Origin: Nitrosomonas sp.
Lineage (GTDB): Bacteria > Pseudomonadota > Gammaproteobacteria > Burkholderiales > Nitrosomonadaceae
Length of the DNA: 64,000 nt
NCBI GenBank assembly: GCA_019635215.1
Contig: JAHBZZ010000005.1
Location: forward strand, 115,470-179,469
Direction: 5' to 3'
Below, piece by piece: positions 35,827 to 44,364 of the stretch. The notes beneath the pieces were generated by a model. It was not told the DNA's origin and did no database searches. It saw nothing but the letters and a program-made list of their open reading frames with translations. Within the stretch, counting starts at the first letter, position 1. The number at the start of each line of letters is the position of its first letter. A program made the translations under genes and the position numbers.

Positions 35827-38592
35827 TTAGAAAGTATAACTCCACGACGCCGCCAGCGCGCCTTTGGGTACTAATTGAAATCCATTGACATCGGTATGCA
35901 CCGGTTGCAGCCATTCAAACCCCAGATGATTCCCGGCAAACCGGCCGCCGGGCACATTGACGTTGACACCCACACCAATATTCCAGAACTGGCCGCCATA
36001 GCTTCTGGGAAAATCCATTGGACCGGTACGCGCGTTAAACATATTGAAATCACCATGAATATGATCTTGCGCCGTGTAAACACCGCGTACCGAAGCAGTC
36101 AGCCAGCGTGACAGATCAAGTCCGCTCCAGGCGGTTGCCTGAAAAGCATCACCCAGACGATAACCTGAATCGTTCTGCTTTTCCATGCGTTTGATACCGC
36201 TCACTTGCATACCCCATGACCAGCGATCATGCTCACCGGTATATGTCAGGCTCGGCACAAAATCCCAAGTGCCACTGCCCAGTTGCATACCGAAATGAAT
36301 CGCGCCACCGTCAGCTCTTGCCACACGGCGTAACTCTATATCCGTCTTGCCGGACGGCGCACTCAACCCCAGACTGGCATGCAGGCGATGTCCGCGTTTT
36401 CCATACAGCTTAAGCAATGCCGCCATCAGCGTATCGCCGATAACACCGGTTGAATGTCCAACAATACCGGTATGCTCGTGTACCCCCGGTGCCCGCGGCG
36501 GCCTGCCGTCGAGTTCGCGAAGATTCATGTCCATATCCATAAACGTGGGCATGACCATCAGATTCAACCAGCGTGTCGGCGCATACATCAGGTCGAGCAT
36601 ATGCATGCGCATATTCATATACGACGGCGTAAACCGGCATAAATTCTCGTCAGTACAACCCTGGTTGACAACAACCTGATCGCTGACCGCACGCGTTCCA
36701 TGATGCATTTTGCCATCCTGGTGGCTATACATAAAACGGTAGCCCACCATAAACTGGCCTGGTTTATCCAGCATATGCGCATACATAAGCCCTGCAGGCT
36801 GAGTATGGCGATGACGGTGATCTGTACTACCATGCGCTTCCGTATGACCGTGATGATGCCCATGATGCATACCGCCAGCCGGTTTTGTCAGTGACATCGA
36901 TTCCAGATTGAGTTTCAATGCGGCATTGGCAACATAGTAATCAAAATCGGCAAAGCCGTTACCACCGCCACCGCCAAGCTTAAACGCACTGGCACGGGTG
37001 TAATATTCAAACCCGGCTTCCAACGCTATGCCCTTGGCCAACTGCTTATTTAGCGTGAAACCACCACTGAGCGCACCGAATCCGGCAAGCCGGTGATCGC
37101 TGGAAAAGTTATTCGGCAACTGTCCTGGATCAAACGCGACTGTTTTGGGTTCAACGAGAAGCGTTGCTTCATTAACCGGATTTCCCGCACCGTCGACTAA
37201 GTTGAAATTCGCATCGCGGAAATATTCATTGTTCGGATTCAGCGAATCCACCCAAACCTCCCGCCCGAGACTGTCAAAGGCTTGTCTGGAGAAATTTTGC
37301 TGGGAAATCAGATAGGGATTGTAAAAGCTGGCCGAATCCTGTGAATAATAGCGGATTCTCGGTGTGAACATCCAGCCAAACGGCAGCGGTTGTACCCAGC
37401 TGGCGTCAAAGGTATGCGTTTTGATACCCCAGTCGTCGGCAGTGAATTTATAATCCAGATGCAAAGCGGCATCAAAGAAATTGATATGCTGAATATATTT
37501 GGTATTAAAGGCAAACTGGTTGCGCTGACCGGGGCGCTGTTCGAGCAAAGCACGCACGTCGCCAGGCACGGGCGTCGTCTGACCGTTGTTCAGAATGTCA
37601 GGATCGACAAAAATAACCGTCATCGCTTTATAGGGATTTTCCAGAAATCCCTGGCTGTGCGTATAGCCAAAATTTGCGTCAATCAGTGCATGCTTGTTGA
37701 GCACTTGCGTCAATCCCAGATTGGCCGACCAATCCTGCCGCTCGCCATGTAGTATTTCAGAACCACCACGATTTTCGATCTGTTTGGCAAATGCTGTTTT
37801 GGTCAGATAGGGAGAGGAATCATGATCGAGAATCGCGCTGATATTACTGCTGGTGTATCCCGCACCGAACTTGACGGTTGTCAGTTTCTGGTTAAAATCG
37901 AGTCGGCCGCCCAGGTTGCCGAAACTGGAACGATAATCGTTTTCCAGCGAAAAACCCGCACTGGCATTGATTGCCGCTTCATCCCATTCGTAGCCTAGCC
38001 CGAAATTGGCCTGATGGCGTGTTTCGGGAGACGCTGACGCCAGCACCAGAACAGACCGAGTATCCTGTGCCAGTGTGCCATCCGGATTTCTGCCGAGCGG
38101 ATTTAAGTTACGATCCAGTAGTAATCCCCTGGGAAATATCAAGGGTGATGCACCAACCACTGTCGTGCCTGACGGTGTATTTGCCAGAATCGATTGATAC
38201 GGATTGGCCGCCAATGGCGATGTTGTGATCGGCGTCGCACCTGACCAGGTGTCCTGCGTATAACTGAATGAAAACTTGGCGCGGTCGGTCAGTGGAAAAA
38301 GCCCGTTGCCATGCAAAACATCCGCACGAATGGGATCAAAATTATTCGGTGTGCCAAAGAGATCGCGCTTCCCTTCCTGATACCGGCTGAATTGAAAGTT
38401 AATGCGGCCACCGTCATCCGCCTGCGCGGGCGACAACATCAGACCGGGCAGGACAATCGCCGCCGACGTCAATGCCTGCAGCGCCTTACTCGCGGTACCA
38501 GCAGACCGGATTACGCGAGATTGGTTATGAGCGGAATTTGAGCATTCATCAGAAACCCTGCCCTGCAATGGCTTATCCCGCTTAAACCTCAT
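35827..38592 (-). CDS. DUF3570 outer-membrane beta-barrel protein, His/Met-rich
   Basis: A 921-residue predicted barrel. A signal peptide with a long n-region ends near residue 58 (SPAQA), and the last residues SWSYTF have the terminal Phe of outer-membrane proteins. The DUF3570 domain covers both ends. Near residues 570-597 is a His cluster (HHGHHHGHTEAHG and DHRHRH), and around 650-690 a Met-rich stretch (MNMRMHMLDLMY, MVMPTFMDMDMN), both suited to binding copper. The order TlpA, DUF4266, DUF3570, ApbE recurs in other bacteria. A metal-related export or electron-transfer role is inferred. Confidence 0.85.
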   Translation of the reverse strand: MRFKRDKPLQGRVSDECSNSAHNQSRVIRSAGTASKALQALTSAAIVLPGLMLSPAQADDGGRINFQFSRYQEGKRDLFGTPNNFDPIRADVLHGNGLFPLTDRAKFSFSYTQDTWSGATPITTSPLAANPYQSILANTPSGTTVVGASPLIFPRGLLLDRNLNPLGRNPDGTLAQDTRSVLVLASASPETRHQANFGLGYEWDEAAINASAGFSLENDYRSSFGNLGGRLDFNQKLTTVKFGAGYTSSNISAILDHDSSPYLTKTAFAKQIENRGGSEILHGERQDWSANLGLTQVLNKHALIDANFGYTHSQGFLENPYKAMTVIFVDPDILNNGQTTPVPGDVRALLEQRPGQRNQFAFNTKYIQHINFFDAALHLDYKFTADDWGIKTHTFDASWVQPLPFGWMFTPRIRYYSQDSASFYNPYLISQQNFSRQAFDSLGREVWVDSLNPNNEYFRDANFNLVDGAGNPVNEATLLVEPKTVAFDPGQLPNNFSSDHRLAGFGALSGGFTLNKQLAKGIALEAGFEYYTRASAFKLGGGGGNGFADFDYYVANAALKLNLESMSLTKPAGGMHHGHHHGHTEAHGSTDHRHRHTQPAGLMYAHMLDKPGQFMVGYRFMYSHQDGKMHHGTRAVSDQVVVNQGCTDENLCRFTPSYMNMRMHMLDLMYAPTRWLNLMVMPTFMDMDMNLRELDGRPPRAPGVHEHTGIVGHSTGVIGDTLMAALLKLYGKRGHRLHASLGLSAPSGKTDIELRRVARADGGAIHFGMQLGSGTWDFVPSLTYTGEHDRWSWGMQVSGIKRMEKQNDSGYRLGDAFQATAWSGLDLSRWLTASVRGVYTAQDHIHGDFNMFNARTGPMDFPRSYGGQFWNIGVGVNVNVPGGRFAGNHLGFEWLQPVHTDVNGFQLVPKGALAASWSYTF

Positions 38593-38607: not shown

Positions 38608-38835
38608 TTAGTAGCATCCGCAACCACCGCCACCATCGGCGGAGTGCGTACTGGCAGCTGCTTCCCGGCTGAAATAATTATGCAGCTGAATATGATGCTG
38701 CAACGGATTAGGTTCAACAGCCATCTGCGGCTTGGCAAGATAACCGCGCTCCCATGCTGCAACATTGGCACAGCCCGACAGCATCAAAAAAATCAGGCCT
38801 GCAAAACCAAAAAGAAATAATTGCTTTAATTTCAT
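38608..38835 (-). CDS. DUF4266 lipoprotein
   Basis: A 75-residue lipoprotein. Signal peptide with lipobox LSGC (Cys22) is followed by the family core WERGYLAKPQMAVEPNPLQHH and YFSREAAAS, and it ends in GGGGCGCY, the Gly-Cys tail common to DUF4266. The two C-terminal Cys might bind metal or accept a modification. It lies between the TlpA-like gene and the DUF3570 gene with gaps of 12 and 15 bp, so all are one operon. Confidence 0.85.
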   Translation of the reverse strand: MKLKQLFLFGFAGLIFLMLSGCANVAAWERGYLAKPQMAVEPNPLQHHIQLHNYFSREAAASTHSADGGGGCGCY

Positions 38836-38847
38836 AGTAAAAAACGA

Positions 38848-39354
38848 TCAGGGACGATAGTCTAAAAGCTGTTCAACAATCTGCCGCAGCGCTTTGGTTT
38901 CCCCCGGGCGAAAACCGCGGTGGATATACCGCACCATGCCTTCCCGGTCAATCAGATACGAAGAAGGCATGGCAATGACATCAAAATCCTTCGCACATTG
39001 TTTTGATCGATCAGCAACAATGCTGAACCCGGCTGGGTAATCGGAAAGAAATTTCTCCGCATCGGCCACCTTTTCATCCAGATTGACGCCAACAACACGT
39101 AACCCCCGTTCGCCATACTCCTGTTGTAATCCGGTTAAAAAAGGAAATGACTGTATGCACGGCGGACACCAGGATGCCCAGAAATCGACATAGATAACTT
39201 CGCCTTTCAGTGCCTGCAGACTATCAACCGGCACACCGTCCAGTGCAGTCAGATTGCATACGGGCGCTGGCCTGTCAATCAGCTGCGCAGCCATAACCGA
39301 TGCCGTTAGCGGCAATAAAAACAAAAGCGGCAAAAGACACGAGATTTTTTTCAT
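38848..39354 (-). CDS. TlpA/ResA-like thioredoxin, exported
   Basis: A 168-residue thioredoxin-fold protein with a signal peptide (MKKISCLLPLLFLLPLTASVMA). The active site is WCPPC in FWASWCPPCIQSFPFL (about residue 66), and the cis-Pro region is MPSSYLIDREG. It should reduce disulfides in the periplasm. The ATG at 39354 is used; a TTG four codons upstream gives worse spacing from the AGGGAG ribosome-binding site. It may keep copper-binding Cys of operon partners reduced; that is inference. Confidence 0.9.
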   Translation of the reverse strand: MKKISCLLPLLFLLPLTASVMAAQLIDRPAPVCNLTALDGVPVDSLQALKGEVIYVDFWASWCPPCIQSFPFLTGLQQEYGERGLRVVGVNLDEKVADAEKFLSDYPAGFSIVADRSKQCAKDFDVIAMPSSYLIDREGMVRYIHRGFRPGETKALRQIVEQLLDYRP

Positions 39355-39393
39355 GTGATCTTGCAACTCCCTATAGAAGACAAAAGCACCGTA

Positions 39394-39876
39394 TCAGAAA
39401 TTTCTCCCTTCAGGCACGCCAAATTGTGTAACGCCGAGTTCAGTTCCGGTATGTGTATCGGTACCGTCCATACAGTGCCATTCCAGATCAAATGCGCGTT
39501 CTCCGACATCGGTTTTGCTCACAATTACAAAATAAGCACCCGTACCACCATGCAACTCTACAAACGGACTGTAATTAGCATCTCCAGGAACCGTATCGCT
39601 GATACTCACCGCCTGATTACCCTTAAAGATATGCAGATTGGTGATCAATCCCGGTACAGCAGGCGAATTGTCGCGTATCTGGGCAGTCAGGTAATAATCA
39701 GCTGCTGCGCCAACTCCATCGGATGTACAAGTCACTACAGCCACGCCGGTAAATGATCGATCATATCCAAGCATCGCACCGCCGCCGTGCGCATGCACGA
39801 AAGCGGCATGACCCAGCAGGCACATCCCGGCAACAACGGATATTCCTTTTTTCAAATGACAGTATTGCTTAAGCAT
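39394..39876 (-). CDS. Small secreted protein with N-terminal His-Gly-Gly-Gly after signal cleavage
   Basis: A 160-residue protein with a signal peptide (MLKQYCHLKKGISVVAGMCL...), predicted to be cut after VHA so that the mature form starts HGGG. One Cys pair is seen (VVTCTSDG and WHCMDG). I do not recognise the family. The ATG at 39876 has a GAGGAG ribosome-binding site; an upstream ATG at 39912 does not. It is the first gene of the operon leading to apbE and is preceded by a dyad-type promoter. A mature N-terminal His parallels the two YcnI-like proteins next door. Confidence 0.7.
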   Translation of the reverse strand: MLKQYCHLKKGISVVAGMCLLGHAAFVHAHGGGAMLGYDRSFTGVAVVTCTSDGVGAAADYYLTAQIRDNSPAVPGLITNLHIFKGNQAVSISDTVPGDANYSPFVELHGGTGAYFVIVSKTDVGERAFDLEWHCMDGTDTHTGTELGVTQFGVPEGRNF

Positions 39877-39974: not shown

Positions 39975-40020
39975 ATTATCCTTTCCGGATAATGAAATAG
40001 CAATGCGACAAAATGTCGCA
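39975..40020 (-). promoter_or_regulatory. Dyad-controlled promoter 1, before the secreted-protein/apbE operon
   Basis: The perfect dyad TGCGACA-AAA-TGTCGCA (40004-40020) directly abuts a minus-strand -35 TTGCTA (40003-39998). A 17-base spacer leads to -10 GATAAT (39980-39975). The dyad centre would lie near -44, as for class II activators. An 11-bp perfect inverted repeat (39971-39981 with 39987-39997, loop TTTCC) overlaps the spacer and -10 and could form a hairpin. The first gene starts about 95 nt downstream of the expected transcription start. Confidence 0.75.
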
Positions 40021-40027
40021 CCCCAAG

Positions 40028-40055
40028 AAAAACGCCGCACAAAGGCGGCGTTTTT
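40028..40055 (-). terminator. Rho-independent terminator after the first YcnI-like gene
   Basis: AAAAACGCCGC (40028-40038) pairs with GCGGCGTTTTT (40045-40055) around a 6-base loop. It works in both directions by sequence, and follows the stop at 40101 by about 45 bases. It separates the YcnI-like transcript from dyad promoter 1 immediately downstream. Confidence 0.85.
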
Positions 40056-40100
40056 CCAGTACGTCAGATTAGAAAAAAATTTACTGAATCAGCAGCAAAC

Positions 40101-40844
40101 TCAGGGTTGAGGCCACACCTGCTGCCCATTGAATTTGATCGGCATGTCACGGTTAATTTGCGCGGCTGAAGGTTTCAGTTCGACCGCGACACCGGCGCCG
40201 CATGACTCAGGCAGCGGATTGTTAGTCAAATCACGATTAATGGTAAATGACGCGGGACCATCGTCAGTCGCACTGACACGATCAAAAGGCGTGCCAAGAT
40301 TGTTATGCGTCCATAGTTCAACCGTACCTTCACGGAAACCATCTACGCCGGTAATTTCGCAAATATCCACAATCGATACATAAACCTTTACACTTTTTGC
40401 GCAGGATGCCGGCTCTATAGCTGCAGCAGCCAACCTGAAAGGAAGCGCCACAGCAAGACCAGCCGGCATACCGGGCCCGCCACCCGCCCAGAAACCGGTT
40501 ACATTACCATTCGCATCCCTTTTGGTCTCCATGTAATCGAAAGCAGAACGATCATAAAAAAATGTCACGTTATTACCATAATTGGTCAGAAAGTCAATTA
40601 TCGGGCCACTATGCGGCGTACCATCAACAACTATGGTTGAATCTACGCCATCCGGAAATACCACCGAAGTACCAATAGTATGTGACGTATCAGTACAGGA
40701 ATGTCCGATGATGACGTGATTGATAGCCCGCTGGCCTTCTGTTGCGCTTGAAATATTCAGCCGCGTATGCGCTGCCGCATTTTGTGTCAAGCCGATCAAC
40801 AGTACACTGGCTACCGCGCCCGAAAGTAATTTAATTTTATTCAT
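40101..40844 (-). CDS. YcnI-like (DUF1775-related) exported protein, predicted copper-binding N-terminus
   Basis: A 247-residue protein with a signal peptide (MNKIKLLSGAVASVLLIGLT...), predicted cleaved after AAA to give a mature N-terminus HTRLNI. The strand pattern with NHVIIGHSCTDTSHTIGTSVVFPDG and the tail INRDMPIKFNGQQVWPQP is shared with the next gene, and the HSC/HGC motif resembles the VPHGC of YcnI-like DUF1775 proteins, where the N-terminal His helps bind copper. Four or five Cys are present. An AAGG ribosome-binding site and dyad promoter 2 precede it, a terminator follows. Confidence 0.7.
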   Translation of the reverse strand: MNKIKLLSGAVASVLLIGLTQNAAAHTRLNISSATEGQRAINHVIIGHSCTDTSHTIGTSVVFPDGVDSTIVVDGTPHSGPIIDFLTNYGNNVTFFYDRSAFDYMETKRDANGNVTGFWAGGGPGMPAGLAVALPFRLAAAAIEPASCAKSVKVYVSIVDICEITGVDGFREGTVELWTHNNLGTPFDRVSATDDGPASFTINRDLTNNPLPESCGAGVAVELKPSAAQINRDMPIKFNGQQVWPQP

Positions 40845-40921
40845 TTTTATAACCTTTATCTCAAAAAATTAGTTGTCGTAACACGCAAGCGGAAACCCAT
40901 CCAGCCGCGCCACTTAATTAA

Positions 40922-40967
40922 AGTATCTTGTTTTCCATACGGAAAAACAATGCGGCAAATTGTCGCA
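40922..40967 (-). promoter_or_regulatory. Dyad-controlled promoter 2, before the first YcnI-like gene
   Basis: The near-perfect dyad TGCGGCA-AAT-TGTCGCA (40951-40967) abuts a minus-strand -35 TTGTTT (40950-40945); 17 bases on is -10 GATACT (40927-40922). An imperfect inverted repeat TTGTTTTCC / GGAAAAACAA (40928-40950) lies over the spacer, as at promoter 1. The gene starts at 40844, about 70 nt from the expected transcript start. Confidence 0.75.
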
Positions 40968-41032
40968 CCCGTTCACTTGAAACAAAAAACGGATAACTGC
41001 CTGAAGTGGGAACAAGGGCTTGACAGACCATC

Positions 41033-41839
41033 TTAAGGTAATGGCCAGACCTGTTGTCCGTTGATCCTGACCGGCATATCGCGATGAAGCTGTGCTGCCG
41101 AAGGAAAAATGCGTGCAGCAATACCATCGCCACAGCTTGCCGGCAGCGGATTATTCACCAGATCGCGTTCCACGGTAAAAGTCGCGGGGTAACTCCAGTT
41201 GGGTGAGTCATACGGCGTTCCCACATCAGGTGCGGTCCAGAAATCGACGTTGGGATCATCGGCATTCTTACCGTCGATCTCAGCCAGCGACGATAATTTA
41301 CAGATATTTGCAATTGCCGGCACAAAAACTACTTTTGTAGCGCAAGATGCGGGCTGGACGGCTACCGCTGTAATGTTCATCGGCAATTGTGCGACCCAGT
41401 TATGCGGTGGCAACTCACCACCGGCTGCCCAGAATCCAATCGGATTACCCAGCGGATCGTTGATAAACTCGACTGTGTCATAGACATCGCGGCTTTTAAT
41501 CAATCGGATGAACGGTGAGTTCACGATGTAATCGAATGCAGTTGCGCCCTCAGGGGTTTGGAATGTGGCAAAATTGTCCGAAGAGGTCTGAACAATTGCA
41601 CCATTGCTGTCCGGCATAAAAAAGACATTGCCAATCACGGAATTATCGCCACAACCATGTGGAACATTCACGGCCGTCGTAGTCGTACCATGCGCCGCGG
41701 AGCTTTCCTTCGCCGTCGTGACCGTCAAACGGGTATGCGCGGAAACATTGTGACTTGCCAGCGCAACCAAGGCGGCAACTGCAACCGCTAAAACTGCCTT
41801 CATTTCTGTCCGCTCTATTTTTTCTGCTCGGTTCATCAT
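41033..41839 (-). CDS. YcnI-like (DUF1775-related) exported protein, second copy
   Basis: A 268-residue paralogue of the neighbouring YcnI-like protein. The signal peptide ends ASHNVSA, leaving a mature N-terminus HTRLTV. AVNVPHGCGDNSVIGNVFFMPD matches the VPHGC motif of YcnI-type DUF1775 proteins, and RDMPVRINGQQVWPLP ends it. Starts at 41839 (AGGAT upstream) or 41803 are both possible; the first is listed. It is transcribed from dyad promoter 3 through a leader of about 280 nt. Copper binding is inferred from the N-terminal His and the family. Confidence 0.75.
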   Translation of the reverse strand: MMNRAEKIERTEMKAVLAVAVAALVALASHNVSAHTRLTVTTAKESSAAHGTTTTAVNVPHGCGDNSVIGNVFFMPDSNGAIVQTSSDNFATFQTPEGATAFDYIVNSPFIRLIKSRDVYDTVEFINDPLGNPIGFWAAGGELPPHNWVAQLPMNITAVAVQPASCATKVVFVPAIANICKLSSLAEIDGKNADDPNVDFWTAPDVGTPYDSPNWSYPATFTVERDLVNNPLPASCGDGIAARIFPSAAQLHRDMPVRINGQQVWPLP

Positions 41840-42127
41840 TTTTTTATCCTGTAAAATTTCACTATCGCATTTTTAATTTTATTGACCTTCCCGCATCAGG
41901 GAGGAAGCAATGCACACATTCACATGTCAACGATCCGAACAGCGACAAGCGGGCTATCCTATTCTGCTGACGAAACCGCAGTCATTCATGAATCCATGCA
42001 ATGCTTCCATGGAGGACTTATCAATCAATATCAAAGAAAGATCAGTGATAGTAACGCTACTGGCTCGTCATGCCGAAACAGGCATTCACGTCGCCTGTAT
42101 TCGTTCCGTCACATCTGATCTTTTTTT

Positions 42128-42173
42128 ACTATCTGTCAGAAAAACTGTGAAAGCAATGCGGCAAATTGCCGCA
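42128..42173 (-). promoter_or_regulatory. Dyad-controlled promoter 3, before the second YcnI-like gene
   Basis: The perfect dyad TGCGGCA-AAT-TGCCGCA (42157-42173) abuts a minus-strand -35 TTGCTT (42156-42151). A 17-base spacer leads to -10 GATAGT (42133-42128). Architecture is identical to promoters 1, 2 and 4. The nearest leftward gene starts at 41839. Confidence 0.75.
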
Positions 42174-42299
42174 TGCGGCTTGCTACGGATTTGATTGGAT
42201 AAGAACATGCTTATTGATACTTTAGTTTTTGTACTTATAGACTATGCACTGTGCCGGAATCCGCGAAAAACAAGTGTACGGTACGAAAAAACAAAAGAT

Positions 42300-42534
42300 A
42301 AAAAAACGCAAATGCGAAGAAAAGTGGAGGTGGTACAGGTTTTCACCGGATTTATCAATATTTTACAATTACTGAGTAAGCAACTCATGAACCGAGGTCA
42401 TCGATAAAATCCGGATAAACGCTGCAACACCTCCAGGGAGGAAAAGACTTCAAAGCTATATTCACACGTTTAACTCAGTCATCGCAGTAAACAGGTTCTG
42501 CATAGTTGCATTATGCAGATCCAGACTGAATGTG
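42300..42534 (-). ncRNA. Candidate structured small RNA from dyad promoter 4
   Basis: Promoter 4 would start a leftward transcript near 42534, where no protein gene follows. The transcript contains nested complementary arms: TGGAGGTG with CACCTCCA (plus-strand 42325-42332 and 42428-42435), inside it CCGGATTTATC with GATAAAATCCGG (42346-42356 and 42403-42414, one-base bulge), and an apical TGAGT/ACTCA. About 20 nt after the outer stem is a small CGCATTTGCG hairpin followed by seven Ts (42306-42300, minus strand), a possible terminator. Ends and function are inferred; a degraded gene is the alternative. Confidence 0.45.
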
Positions 42535-42540
42535 TTTTTT

Positions 42541-42586
42541 ACTATCGCGTAAAAATAACCTTAATGCAATGCGGCATAATGTCGCA
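42541..42586 (-). promoter_or_regulatory. Dyad-controlled promoter 4, leftward, no gene directly downstream
   Basis: The dyad TGCGGCA-TAA-TGTCGCA (42570-42586) abuts a minus-strand -35 TTGCAT (42569-42564); 17 bases later is -10 GATAGT (42546-42541). The spacing is the same as at promoters 1-3. Only the candidate small RNA and, 700 bases on, the second YcnI-like gene lie downstream. Confidence 0.7.
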
Positions 42587-42628
42587 TTCGTCAACGGCCA
42601 CAATAGCCATACCCCGGCCGCAAATCGG

Positions 42629-42674
42629 TGCGACAATTTGCCGCATTCCCGCATGGTACTGCACGCTATAGAAT
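42629..42674 (+). promoter_or_regulatory. Dyad-controlled promoter 5, before the spermidine-synthase-like gene
   Basis: The dyad TGCGACA-ATT-TGCCGCA (42629-42645), in the opposite orientation to the other four, abuts a plus-strand -35-like TTCCCG (42646-42651). A 17-base spacer leads to -10 TAGAAT (42669-42674). The weak -35 with a strong -10 and an adjoining dyad is what an activator-dependent promoter looks like. The gene starts at 42772. Confidence 0.7.
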
Positions 42675-42771: not shown

Positions 42772-44364
42772 ATGAATACCGCTCAATCTGATTCTTTTTC
42801 TAATTCTTTTCGCCATCTTTGGCTGTACATCACTGTTTTTATCACCGGTGCCGCAGTAATGGTCATCGAGTTACTTGGTACACGGCTGATTGCACCATTT
42901 TACGGCGCAAGCCTGTATGTATGGACTTCAGTGATCGCAGTGACGCTGATCGCTCTGGCTTTGGGGTATTTCATCGGCGGACACTGGGCGGATCGGACAA
43001 GACGGGCCGGACTGGCATTCATTATTGCTTTGGCGGGTTTTTTGACGTTGCTGGTACCTTGGCTGACGGCCCCCATACTTCTGGCTACCGATCCACTGGG
43101 GTTACGCATGGGCACGTTTATCAGCACACTCGTGCTGTTCACGCCGAGTCTGTTCATGCTCGGCATGGTCGGGCCATTTGCGGTCAAGCGCGCCACATCC
43201 AGTCTGGACGGTGTGGGCGCCAGCACCGGCTCGATTTATGCCGTCAGCACGGTGGGTAGCGTTATTGGTACACTTTTTCTGGGCTTTTATCTGTTTCCCC
43301 AGGTCGGTTCGCGTGAAATCTTTATCGGATTAGGCATCGCCCTACTGGCGCTCTCCTTTTTTGTTATTTATTTTGAGCGCGAACACATCAGACCCGCGTA
43401 TGCCTTGCCGTCTGTTGCCGTCATTACACTGGCCGGTGCCATTCTGTTGCCTTATATCATGGTATCAGGTAACCAGTTGCTGACCAGTGAAGATCAATTT
43501 CAGACACAGTTTGAGCGTGAAAGCCTGTATGGATGGGTACGTGTAATCGATAATCCCAATGATAATTACCGGCTGCTGACCGTCGATGCATCCGCCATCG
43601 GCGCCGCCACACTCAGCCGTGGTGAAAATATATTGACCTATCAGGAAATCGTATCTTTACTGCCTGCACTGGCACCCGACATGAAGCATGCGCTGCTGAT
43701 CGGACAAGGCGCTGGTCATATGGTGACAACACTCAAGCGACATGGGATCCGGACGGATACGCTGGAAATTGATCCCGTTGTCGCTGAAGCGGCGCGCGAT
43801 TATTTTGATTTTGCGCCAACCGGCAAAACCATTATCGGCGATGCGCGCTATGAAATCCGTAAACTGCAGGGACCTTATGATTTGATCATTCTGGATGTTT
43901 TCACCGGTGGCGCCGAACCGGTTCATCTGCTAACGGTGGAAACCATGCGGCAATTACAGGCATTGCTTTCCGATCACGGTATTATGGCACTCAATTTTGT
44001 CGCTTTTTTTGAGGATGGCAAGAACCCGGCGCTGGCTTCTGTCGCTAAAACACTGGCACAGGTATTTCCGCATCAGATTACATTGATTTCCGAACCCGGC
44101 CATGAATTCAACGATTTTATTTTTCTCGCGGCCGATTTCCCAATTATTATCGAGTCCGACAATCCGGACAAAGCTGTCGCTGTAAACCGTTTGCGCTACG
44201 ATCAAAGCCACTGGCTCAAACAACGGGTTGTTCATCTTGACTGGAGCCATGGCGTTATTCTGACAGATAACCTGAACCCGCTTGAGTCCATGCAAACCCG
44301 GAAATCGGAACAGTATCGCCTGATGATGACCGACTCAATCGGCCTGAATCACTTTATCCGTTGA
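42772..44364 (+). CDS. Membrane-fused spermidine synthase-like protein
   Basis: A 530-residue protein. Six or seven transmembrane helices fill residues 18-230 (AAVMVIELLGTRLIAPFYGASLYVWTS and following), and a spermidine-synthase-like Rossmann domain fills the rest, with HALLIGQGAGHMVTTLKRHG (SAM-type loop), DTLEIDPVVAEAARDYF and GDARYEIRKLQGPYDLIILDVFTGG. Such fusions are common in bacteria but their product is seldom shown to be spermidine. The gene is preceded by dyad promoter 5, tying it to the secreted-protein regulon. It converges on recN with a 15-bp gap. Confidence 0.85.
   Translation: MNTAQSDSFSNSFRHLWLYITVFITGAAVMVIELLGTRLIAPFYGASLYVWTSVIAVTLIALALGYFIGGHWADRTRRAGLAFIIALAGFLTLLVPWLTAPILLATDPLGLRMGTFISTLVLFTPSLFMLGMVGPFAVKRATSSLDGVGASTGSIYAVSTVGSVIGTLFLGFYLFPQVGSREIFIGLGIALLALSFFVIYFEREHIRPAYALPSVAVITLAGAILLPYIMVSGNQLLTSEDQFQTQFERESLYGWVRVIDNPNDNYRLLTVDASAIGAATLSRGENILTYQEIVSLLPALAPDMKHALLIGQGAGHMVTTLKRHGIRTDTLEIDPVVAEAARDYFDFAPTGKTIIGDARYEIRKLQGPYDLIILDVFTGGAEPVHLLTVETMRQLQALLSDHGIMALNFVAFFEDGKNPALASVAKTLAQVFPHQITLISEPGHEFNDFIFLAADFPIIIESDNPDKAVAVNRLRYDQSHWLKQRVVHLDWSHGVILTDNLNPLESMQTRKSEQYRLMMTDSIGLNHFIR

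Follow-up and report, generated by a model that had tools for sequence, protein, structure and literature searches.

Promoters and genes of the locus

The stretch of DNA analysed here, referred to below as the window, comprises 64,000 nucleotides (nt) of Nitrosomonas sp. (Burkholderiales; Nitrosomonadaceae; assembly GCA_019635215.1, contig JAHBZZ010000005.1, designated C42), the host genome being 3.39 Mb in size. Five copies of an inverted repeat, TGCGRCA-N3-TGYCGCA (the dyad), each placed in a promoter, are located there among genes of secreted-looking, thioredoxin-like and transporter-like proteins (Table 1; genes and their products are named by the lower coordinate), and we predict that these copies are recognized by a RegA-type regulator. 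The first-pass annotation had described the five dyads and their common design, and this description was confirmed in full: each copy matches the pattern with no mismatches, the next best match in the window having two; each abuts a -35 position, and in all five cases the -10 hexamer starts exactly 23 nt (6 + 17) downstream; four promoters are directed leftward (GATAAT, GATACT, GATAGT and GATAGT) and one rightward (TAGAAT). The -35 position (6 nt) begins with TTG or TTC and is followed by 17 nt and then by the -10 hexamer. With the latter set as -12 to -7, the dyad occupies positions -52 to -36, with its centre at -44.

The signal in the window resides in the perfect copies, since at up to three mismatches its 16 matches are not exceptional (mean of 10.3 in shuffled sequences, 6 of 100 of which reach 16). 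The matrix scan that had been proposed was performed with a promoter matrix built from 106 oriented promoters, six of these from the window itself; the five promoters scored 38-50, and the best score in five shuffled windows was -8.2. Just two other matches in the window exceeded 12 (13.5 and 23.2), both being the same dyads read the opposite way.

Table 1. Promoter elements and genes of the window, and places of the promoter module found in the host genome
Feature	Position	Strand	Remarks
Dyad 1, predicted RegA-type box	40004..40020	-	leftward promoter of genes 39394 to 35827; matrix score 49.5
-10 hexamer GATAAT, promoter 1	39975..39980	-	23 nt from dyad 1; from sequence
Dyad 2	40951..40967	-	leftward promoter of YcnI-fold gene 40101-40844; matrix score 49.0
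-10 hexamer GATACT, promoter 2	40922..40927	-	from sequence
Dyad 3	42157..42173	-	leftward promoter of second YcnI-fold gene 41033-41839; matrix score 46.4
-10 hexamer GATAGT, promoter 3	42128..42133	-	from sequence
Dyad 4	42570..42586	-	leftward; matrix score 41.3
-10 hexamer GATAGT, promoter 4	42541..42546	-	from sequence
Dyad 5	42629..42645	+	rightward promoter of MFS/spermidine-synthase-like gene; matrix score 38.3
-10 hexamer TAGAAT, promoter 5	42669..42674	+	from sequence
DUF3570 protein	35827..38592	-	PF12094 1.1e-108
DUF4266 protein, CGC near C terminus	38608..38835	-	PF14086 2.8e-18
Thioredoxin/Redoxin (TlpA-like) protein	38848..39366	-	PF08534 1.7e-24
Secreted-looking protein, no Pfam/NCBIfam match	39394..39876	-	AlphaFold model mostly beta strands
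Secreted-looking AHTRL protein, predicted YcnI-like fold	40101..40844	-	247 amino acids
Second AHTRL protein	41033..41839	-	37% identical to 40101 protein
Fused MFS/spermidine-synthase-like protein	42772..44364	+	NF037959 1e-58
Module places of the host genome (11, up to three mismatches): window	C42		five, the window promoters
Module, three ECF sigma-factor genes	C45		FecR, TonB-receptor plug protein and PepSY_TM protein nearby
Module, fourth ECF sigma factor	C26		two mismatches
Module, third AHTRL gene	C10		TonB receptor beyond AHTRL gene
Module, C7 site	C7		direction away from regB

The gene order of the window is largely kept in three loci of relatives (L051, L041 and L232), as read from the starts of open reading frames (ORFs). 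Promoters of type 1 precede homologues in relatives (a cluster of nine, the window counted), and those of type 5 form a cluster of seven, also with the window counted; in L041 the matching site is present without the exact register. A counterpart of dyad 4 with a -10 hexamer at 23 nt was found on the corresponding side of the site pair in L041 and L051. No leftward ORF of at least 50 amino acids (aa) lies wholly between promoters 4 and 3; since the leftward ORFs there are all shorter, promoter 4 is probably either a tandem promoter for the 41033-41839 gene or the promoter of a small product. A hairpin with A/T runs resembling an intrinsic terminator was noticed by eye at 40029-40056, between the 40101 gene and promoter 1.

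Distribution of the dyad and its promoter register

The host genome contains nine perfect dyads against none of the reversed control sequence (14 against 4 at up to one mismatch), and five of the nine fall within 2.6 kb. A scan of this genome for the whole module, i.e., the dyad, the -35 position and the -10 hexamer, detected 11 places with up to three mismatches and none in the control (Table 1). In 61 genomes of the family, 213 perfect dyads were found against seven reversed controls, 53 of the genomes having the dyad. From the dyads listed, those flanked by under 45 nt and those repeating a context already represented were left out, so that 161 perfect sites with unique contexts, against the 213 dyads counted, were examined, 23 near regB and 138 others.

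Among these 138, 106 of the 276 flanks, corresponding to 98 sites, have a -10-like hexamer that starts at an offset of exactly 23 nt from the dyad. In the non-redundant set, with the window's five copies excluded, 77 of 111 sites had such a hexamer; counted by flanks, it occurred in 82 of 222 at offset 23, compared with a mean of 7.2 and a maximum of 16 at other offsets, and GATANT was found 31 times at offset 23 and at most six times at any other. In the logo of the 106 promoters, just the dyad, the TT directly following it (93-94%; the next base is G in 64%) and the -10 hexamer stand out, and the flanks diverge; A2 and T6 of the -10 hexamer were fixed by the selection rule, so that at those bases the register alone counts as evidence. 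The -35 element appears weak, because mainly its first two bases, TT, are conserved. The suggestion of the first-pass annotation that copies of the dyad occur beyond chance and in promoter register thus holds genome- and family-wide: instead of scattered dyads, the scan of the genome and its relatives revealed fixed promoter spacing at most sites and sites kept in relatives. The five promoters belong to a multi-promoter regulon with a fixed register, which reaches far beyond the window.

Two further dyads, one perfect and one with one mismatch, at L035:5001-5017 (G000:C9) and L040:3603-3619 (G000:C26), have no -10 hexamer at 23 nt. They lie near genes that, as judged by eye, are XRE- and ParB-like; perhaps the box has been captured there or is used in an unrelated way.

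The RegB/RegA system and its link to the dyad

The protein of the host genome that best matches the ActS/PrrB/RegB kinase model is encoded at C7:62196-63401 (NF033792, 7.5e-86; the next model, RegB of Rhodobacter, 2.3e-60). The gene after it encodes a 196-aa response regulator with the best NCBIfam match to ActR/PrrA/RegA (NF033791, 1.5e-58; next 2.6e-19). The location of regB-regA on another contig is in line with the earlier remark that no regulator gene lies near the window promoters. All 60 RegB homologues of the family keep GGSTNPF (the published quinone motif of RegB being GGXXNPF), the H-box His231 and Cys271, which we take to be the redox-box Cys; since the motif and the Cys are invariant, redox input to RegB is likely. 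Of the 61 genomes of the family, 60 encode a RegA homologue at E 1e-30 or better. Its phospho-acceptor Asp73 is present in all 60, and the helix-turn-helix core LNMHRRTLQR, common to PrrA (1umq), was detected by a regular expression in 57. Over its full length, RegA has its best PDB match in the response regulator 3rqi. The RegA of the host genome (L034:3067-3657) has a single Cys, Cys35 in the receiver domain, which is kept in 59 of the 60 genomes.

A perfect dyad (C7:63519-63535) lies upstream of regB in the host genome. In the 60 family genomes, the dyad upstream of regB was perfect in 22, within one mismatch in 45 and within two in 50; 45 of these 50 sites have a TAATGT-like hexamer, a pattern picked after viewing them, at exactly 23 nt, and at most five have it at any other offset. 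The sole family genome without RegA (G020) has no perfect dyad. In some members of the family that do not belong to the genus (L120, L126, L127 and L128), the outer arms AGGACCA ... TGGTCCT lengthen the dyad at regB into a longer palindrome.

Outside the family, 194 genomes of the order were compared, those with a hit at E 1e-45 or better being counted as RegA-positive. The dyad was present in 55 of 72 RegA-positive and 16 of 122 RegA-negative genomes (Fisher p 5e-19; 126 and 16 sites, respectively), whereas the reversed control occurred in 23 of 72 and 32 of 122 (p 0.41; 28 and 42 sites). In a kinship check of the 15 taxonomic families holding both kinds of genomes, the RegA-positive mean was higher in 10, equal in four and lower in one. 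Among 75 sites listed, out of 142 outside the family, at least 12, in 11 of 29 RegA-positive genomes, are situated 1.26-1.99 kb before regA, approximately where regB would be expected to begin. The placement of the dyad in front of regB-regA, both in the host genome and in its relatives, together with its order-wide co-occurrence with RegA, supports the tentative assignment of the first-pass annotation to the RegA/PrrA/ActR/RegR group; judging by these associations, the regulator of the dyads is very probably the RegB/RegA homologue.

The dyad upstream of AHTRL genes

A further test was provided by the family of the 40101 protein, in which an AHTRL motif follows the signal-like N terminus. Named genomes were searched with this family, and the best 80 of 117 relatives gave 78 loci, mostly in records titled Nitrosomonas; one locus (L265) was left out, having too little sequence upstream. 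In all 77 usable loci, a dyad with at most two mismatches precedes the gene (52 perfect, 21 with one and four with two mismatches), and in 67 of them a -10 hexamer lies exactly 23 nt from it. In the control, i.e., the ends of the same loci, 16 of 156 contained the dyad within two mismatches and six of 156 also the -10; some of these matches may be real neighbouring sites. The family had first been noticed via the dyad, the choice of loci itself being motif-free, and the set overlaps genomes used above, e.g., Nm36, Nm84 and JL21. One record titled as a Klebsiella pneumoniae metagenome-assembled genome (L299) has an AHTRL gene preceded by a dyad with two mismatches; the label of this record looks doubtful, because the gene otherwise occurs mostly in Nitrosomonas records.

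Targets of the predicted regulon

The targets in relatives were compiled by choosing the gene that follows each of the 106 oriented promoters, window counted (seven without a gene; some singletons may be wrong picks). AHTRL proteins prevail (28), followed by the 39394 family (9), MFS/spermidine synthases (7), amidohydrolases (7), ECF sigma factors (6 + 1), a weakly redoxin-like family (6), a protein without family (4), a BNR-repeat protein (4), TonB receptors (3 + 2), TonB (2), PepSY_TM (1), CopD (1) and other singletons. In the host genome, the TonB receptor on C10 has its best NCBIfam match to a copper receptor, below the cut-off (168.5 of 472). Judged by sequence, the recognizable targets suggest acquisition of metal, perhaps of copper; the first-pass annotation had assigned no function to the regulon.

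The AlphaFold model of the 40101 protein (pLDDT, the model confidence score, 86) matched YcnI structures in Foldseek with E 6e-6 to 3e-5 and a template modelling (TM) score of 0.72-0.77 by target; the top match is an uncharacterized Nocardia protein (3esm). YcnI binds Cu(II) through an N-terminal-His site, with the N-terminal His, Glu and Trp as copper ligands. Apparently, the 40101 protein shares with the YcnI/DUF1775 copper proteins the predicted fold and, by eye, an invariant His after the signal-like N terminus. It differs from them in that only part of the model is covered (TM by query 0.40-0.43), in identity (9-10%) and in its greater length, and neither the 40101 nor the 41033 protein matched DUF1775 of Pfam. 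In the AHTRL alignment (A2), H26 is invariant and E36 and W119 are conserved in at least 90%, these residues being possible counterparts of the YcnI ligands. Because of the resemblance of the predicted fold to that of a Cu(II)-binding protein, copper acquisition appears a reasonable, though unproven, role of the regulon.

A fold search with the 39394 family yielded no PDB match at E 0.001 or better. Genes of this family often adjoin AHTRL genes, and its His134 and His142 are invariant. DUF3570, DUF4266 and thioredoxin proteins, encoded together in the window, are the same three protein kinds as in the clusters of ApbE flavinylation, where DUF4266 likewise has CXC near its end; the thioredoxin model named there belongs to another Pfam family than PF08534 (excerpts of PMC8238504).

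Proposed mechanism and alternative explanations

We propose, with a probability of roughly 0.85, that the five dyads are bound by the RegA-type regulator of the RegB/RegA system encoded on C7, the dyads being predicted from sequence to drive a regulon of fixed register. A RegA dimer would bind, via its Fis/NtrC-like helix-turn-helix, the 17-bp palindrome centred at about -44, the half-sites being one helical turn apart; bound just upstream of the weak TTN -35, it would recruit sigma-70 RNA polymerase, with the -10 hexamer (GATAAT type) at a fixed 17-bp spacing from the -35. This geometry suggests class II-type activation. The system is probably autoregulated, because the same module precedes regB in most family genomes. 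The regulon would drive extracytoplasmic metal acquisition through the YcnI-fold proteins, TonB receptors, TonB, PepSY_TM, CopD, FecI-type sigma factors and the DUF3570/DUF4266/thioredoxin set; low metal in the electron-transport enzymes might shift the quinone pool and thereby call for metal uptake. The sites, their register and conservation, their co-occurrence with RegA and the box preceding regB are what the analysis shows; physical binding by RegA, activation rather than repression, the quinone or redox signal and the copper function are what we infer from these sequence data and from structure prediction.

Several observations weigh against this explanation. No -10 hexamer at 23 nt was found for 40 of the 138 sites not associated with regB; these 40 include chance copies, since 11 of them lie inside ORFs of at least 150 aa, compared with 13 of the other 98. 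No site within two mismatches was detected upstream of regB in 10 of the 60 family genomes (the stretches of L143 and L150 being short), and seven of the eight family genomes without a perfect dyad do have RegA. In the order, 17 of the 72 RegA-positive genomes lack the dyad, and the search there, which scored at most 16 candidates per genome, may have missed RegA. In the host genome, the regB start used is only 31 nt after the dyad, and the C7 dyad (L034:5001-5017) fits the module better toward the divergent DAHP-synthase gene (32.7) than toward regB (25.4); because of this distance and this fit, we assume either a regB start deeper in the reading frame or a site that acts on the neighbouring gene or on both genes. 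RegA and RegB themselves score below the NCBIfam equivalog cut-offs (197.7 of 250 bits for NF033791 and 288.6 of 350 for NF033792), for which reason we call them homologues and not equivalog members. Many targets are without known function. The R. capsulatus RegA has Cys156 next to the helix-turn-helix and dimerizes with copper and oxygen via a Cu-driven disulfide (excerpts of PMC9147068); this Cys of the alphaproteobacterial (group 1) RegA is absent here, with no Cys in the aligned helix-turn-helix segment, and a Cu-driven Cys156 disulfide is ruled out for the host RegA. Finally, the Methylomonas RegA bound the feo promoter alone of three regions tested, and not the TonB targets (excerpts of PMC13274454).

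The same box could also serve repression, RegA bound beside the -35 blocking the polymerase and freeing the targets when inactive. In promoters of the module type the dyad does touch the -35, and the R. capsulatus RegA both activates and represses, according to the literature; still, we regard repression as unlikely, as the -35 is degenerate (mainly TT), which is typical of activator-dependent promoters, the promoter-type dyads overlap neither the -10 nor the start, and an exact register is what contact between regulator and polymerase would predict. In addition, most binding by RegA in A. ferrooxidans takes place upstream of polymerase (excerpts of PMC5506826). Even less probable, in our estimation, is that the dyad is read by another regulator, of Fis/NtrC fold or an unrelated palindrome-binding one, the link to regB-regA being indirect. 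The 6-5-6 layout of NtrC-type boxes is indeed similar, but the presence of the dyad tracks RegA across the order, members of the family have it in front of regB and 11 genomes from other families in front of regA, and RegA carries the PrrA recognition core. CopR/CusR and Fur-type boxes were considered as well and ruled out, as their half-site and spacing differ. As for a chance or mobile repeat resembling a promoter, 24 of the 138 dyads not associated with regB lie inside ORFs of at least 150 aa, and single sites may be due to chance; for the whole set chance is ruled out by the counts (9 against 0 and 213 against 7, the latter in 61 genomes), the 77 of 77 AHTRL loci and the register in 77 of 111 sites, and a mobile repeat by the logo, in which no more than the dyad, TT and -10 are common and the flanks diverge, so that the probability left for this explanation is negligible.

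Comparison with published RegA systems and significance

Ammonia oxidation relies on copper and iron enzymes, and iron in Nitrosomonas is controlled by Fur. Tentatively, and at somewhat less than even odds, RegB/RegA might act in ammonia-oxidizing bacteria as the master regulator by which copper (and iron) is acquired, reading the quinone pool, possibly with the help of RegA Cys35, as a gauge of metal loading, and switching on a largely Nitrosomonas-specific set of YcnI-fold, TonB-receptor and FecI-type genes via one stereotyped module. In the literature searched, which included few subscription papers, we came across no description of a RegA regulon or of the control of copper uptake in Nitrosomonas, and no study of RegA in this genus or other ammonia oxidizers. 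The box and its register are regular enough to propose a RegA regulon from sequence alone across Nitrosomonas and the family, which provides a testable list of targets and a promoter geometry for studies of the contact between RegA and polymerase. In contrast, RegA boxes in the literature have been described as degenerate and dissimilar, and motif searches in A. ferrooxidans found none (excerpts of PMC5506826).

The system described here shares with RegB/RegA, PrrB/PrrA, ActS/ActR and RegS/RegR the homologous kinase and regulator, GGSTNPF, the invariant Cys, the H-box His and the helix-turn-helix core, and its box is compatible with the published ones: RegA SSGNVRDNHYSNCSS, PrrA YSCGGC(5)GWCRMA and RegR GNGRCRTTNNGNCGC (excerpts of PMC5506826). 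The RegA consensus was matched exactly by 157 of the 161 sites, the RegR box by 34 exactly and 124 with one mismatch, and the PrrA box by 41 exactly and 120 with one mismatch. This fit lends modest support to the RegA identity, as all the sites were selected by a single pattern and the RegA consensus is a very permissive one. The differences concern the near-perfect 17-bp palindrome in a single register (-44) at sigma-70-like promoters, compared with the degenerate published boxes (excerpts of PMC5506826), the recognizable targets, which are largely those of metal acquisition, and RegA itself, with the conserved Cys35 instead of Cys156. Control of metal uptake, namely of iron, is likewise exerted by RegA of Methylomonas sp. 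DH-1, which binds feo directly; in that organism the effect on the operons of TonB and its receptor seemed indirect (excerpts of PMC13274454), whereas here the TonB, TonB-receptor and FecI-type genes carry the box.

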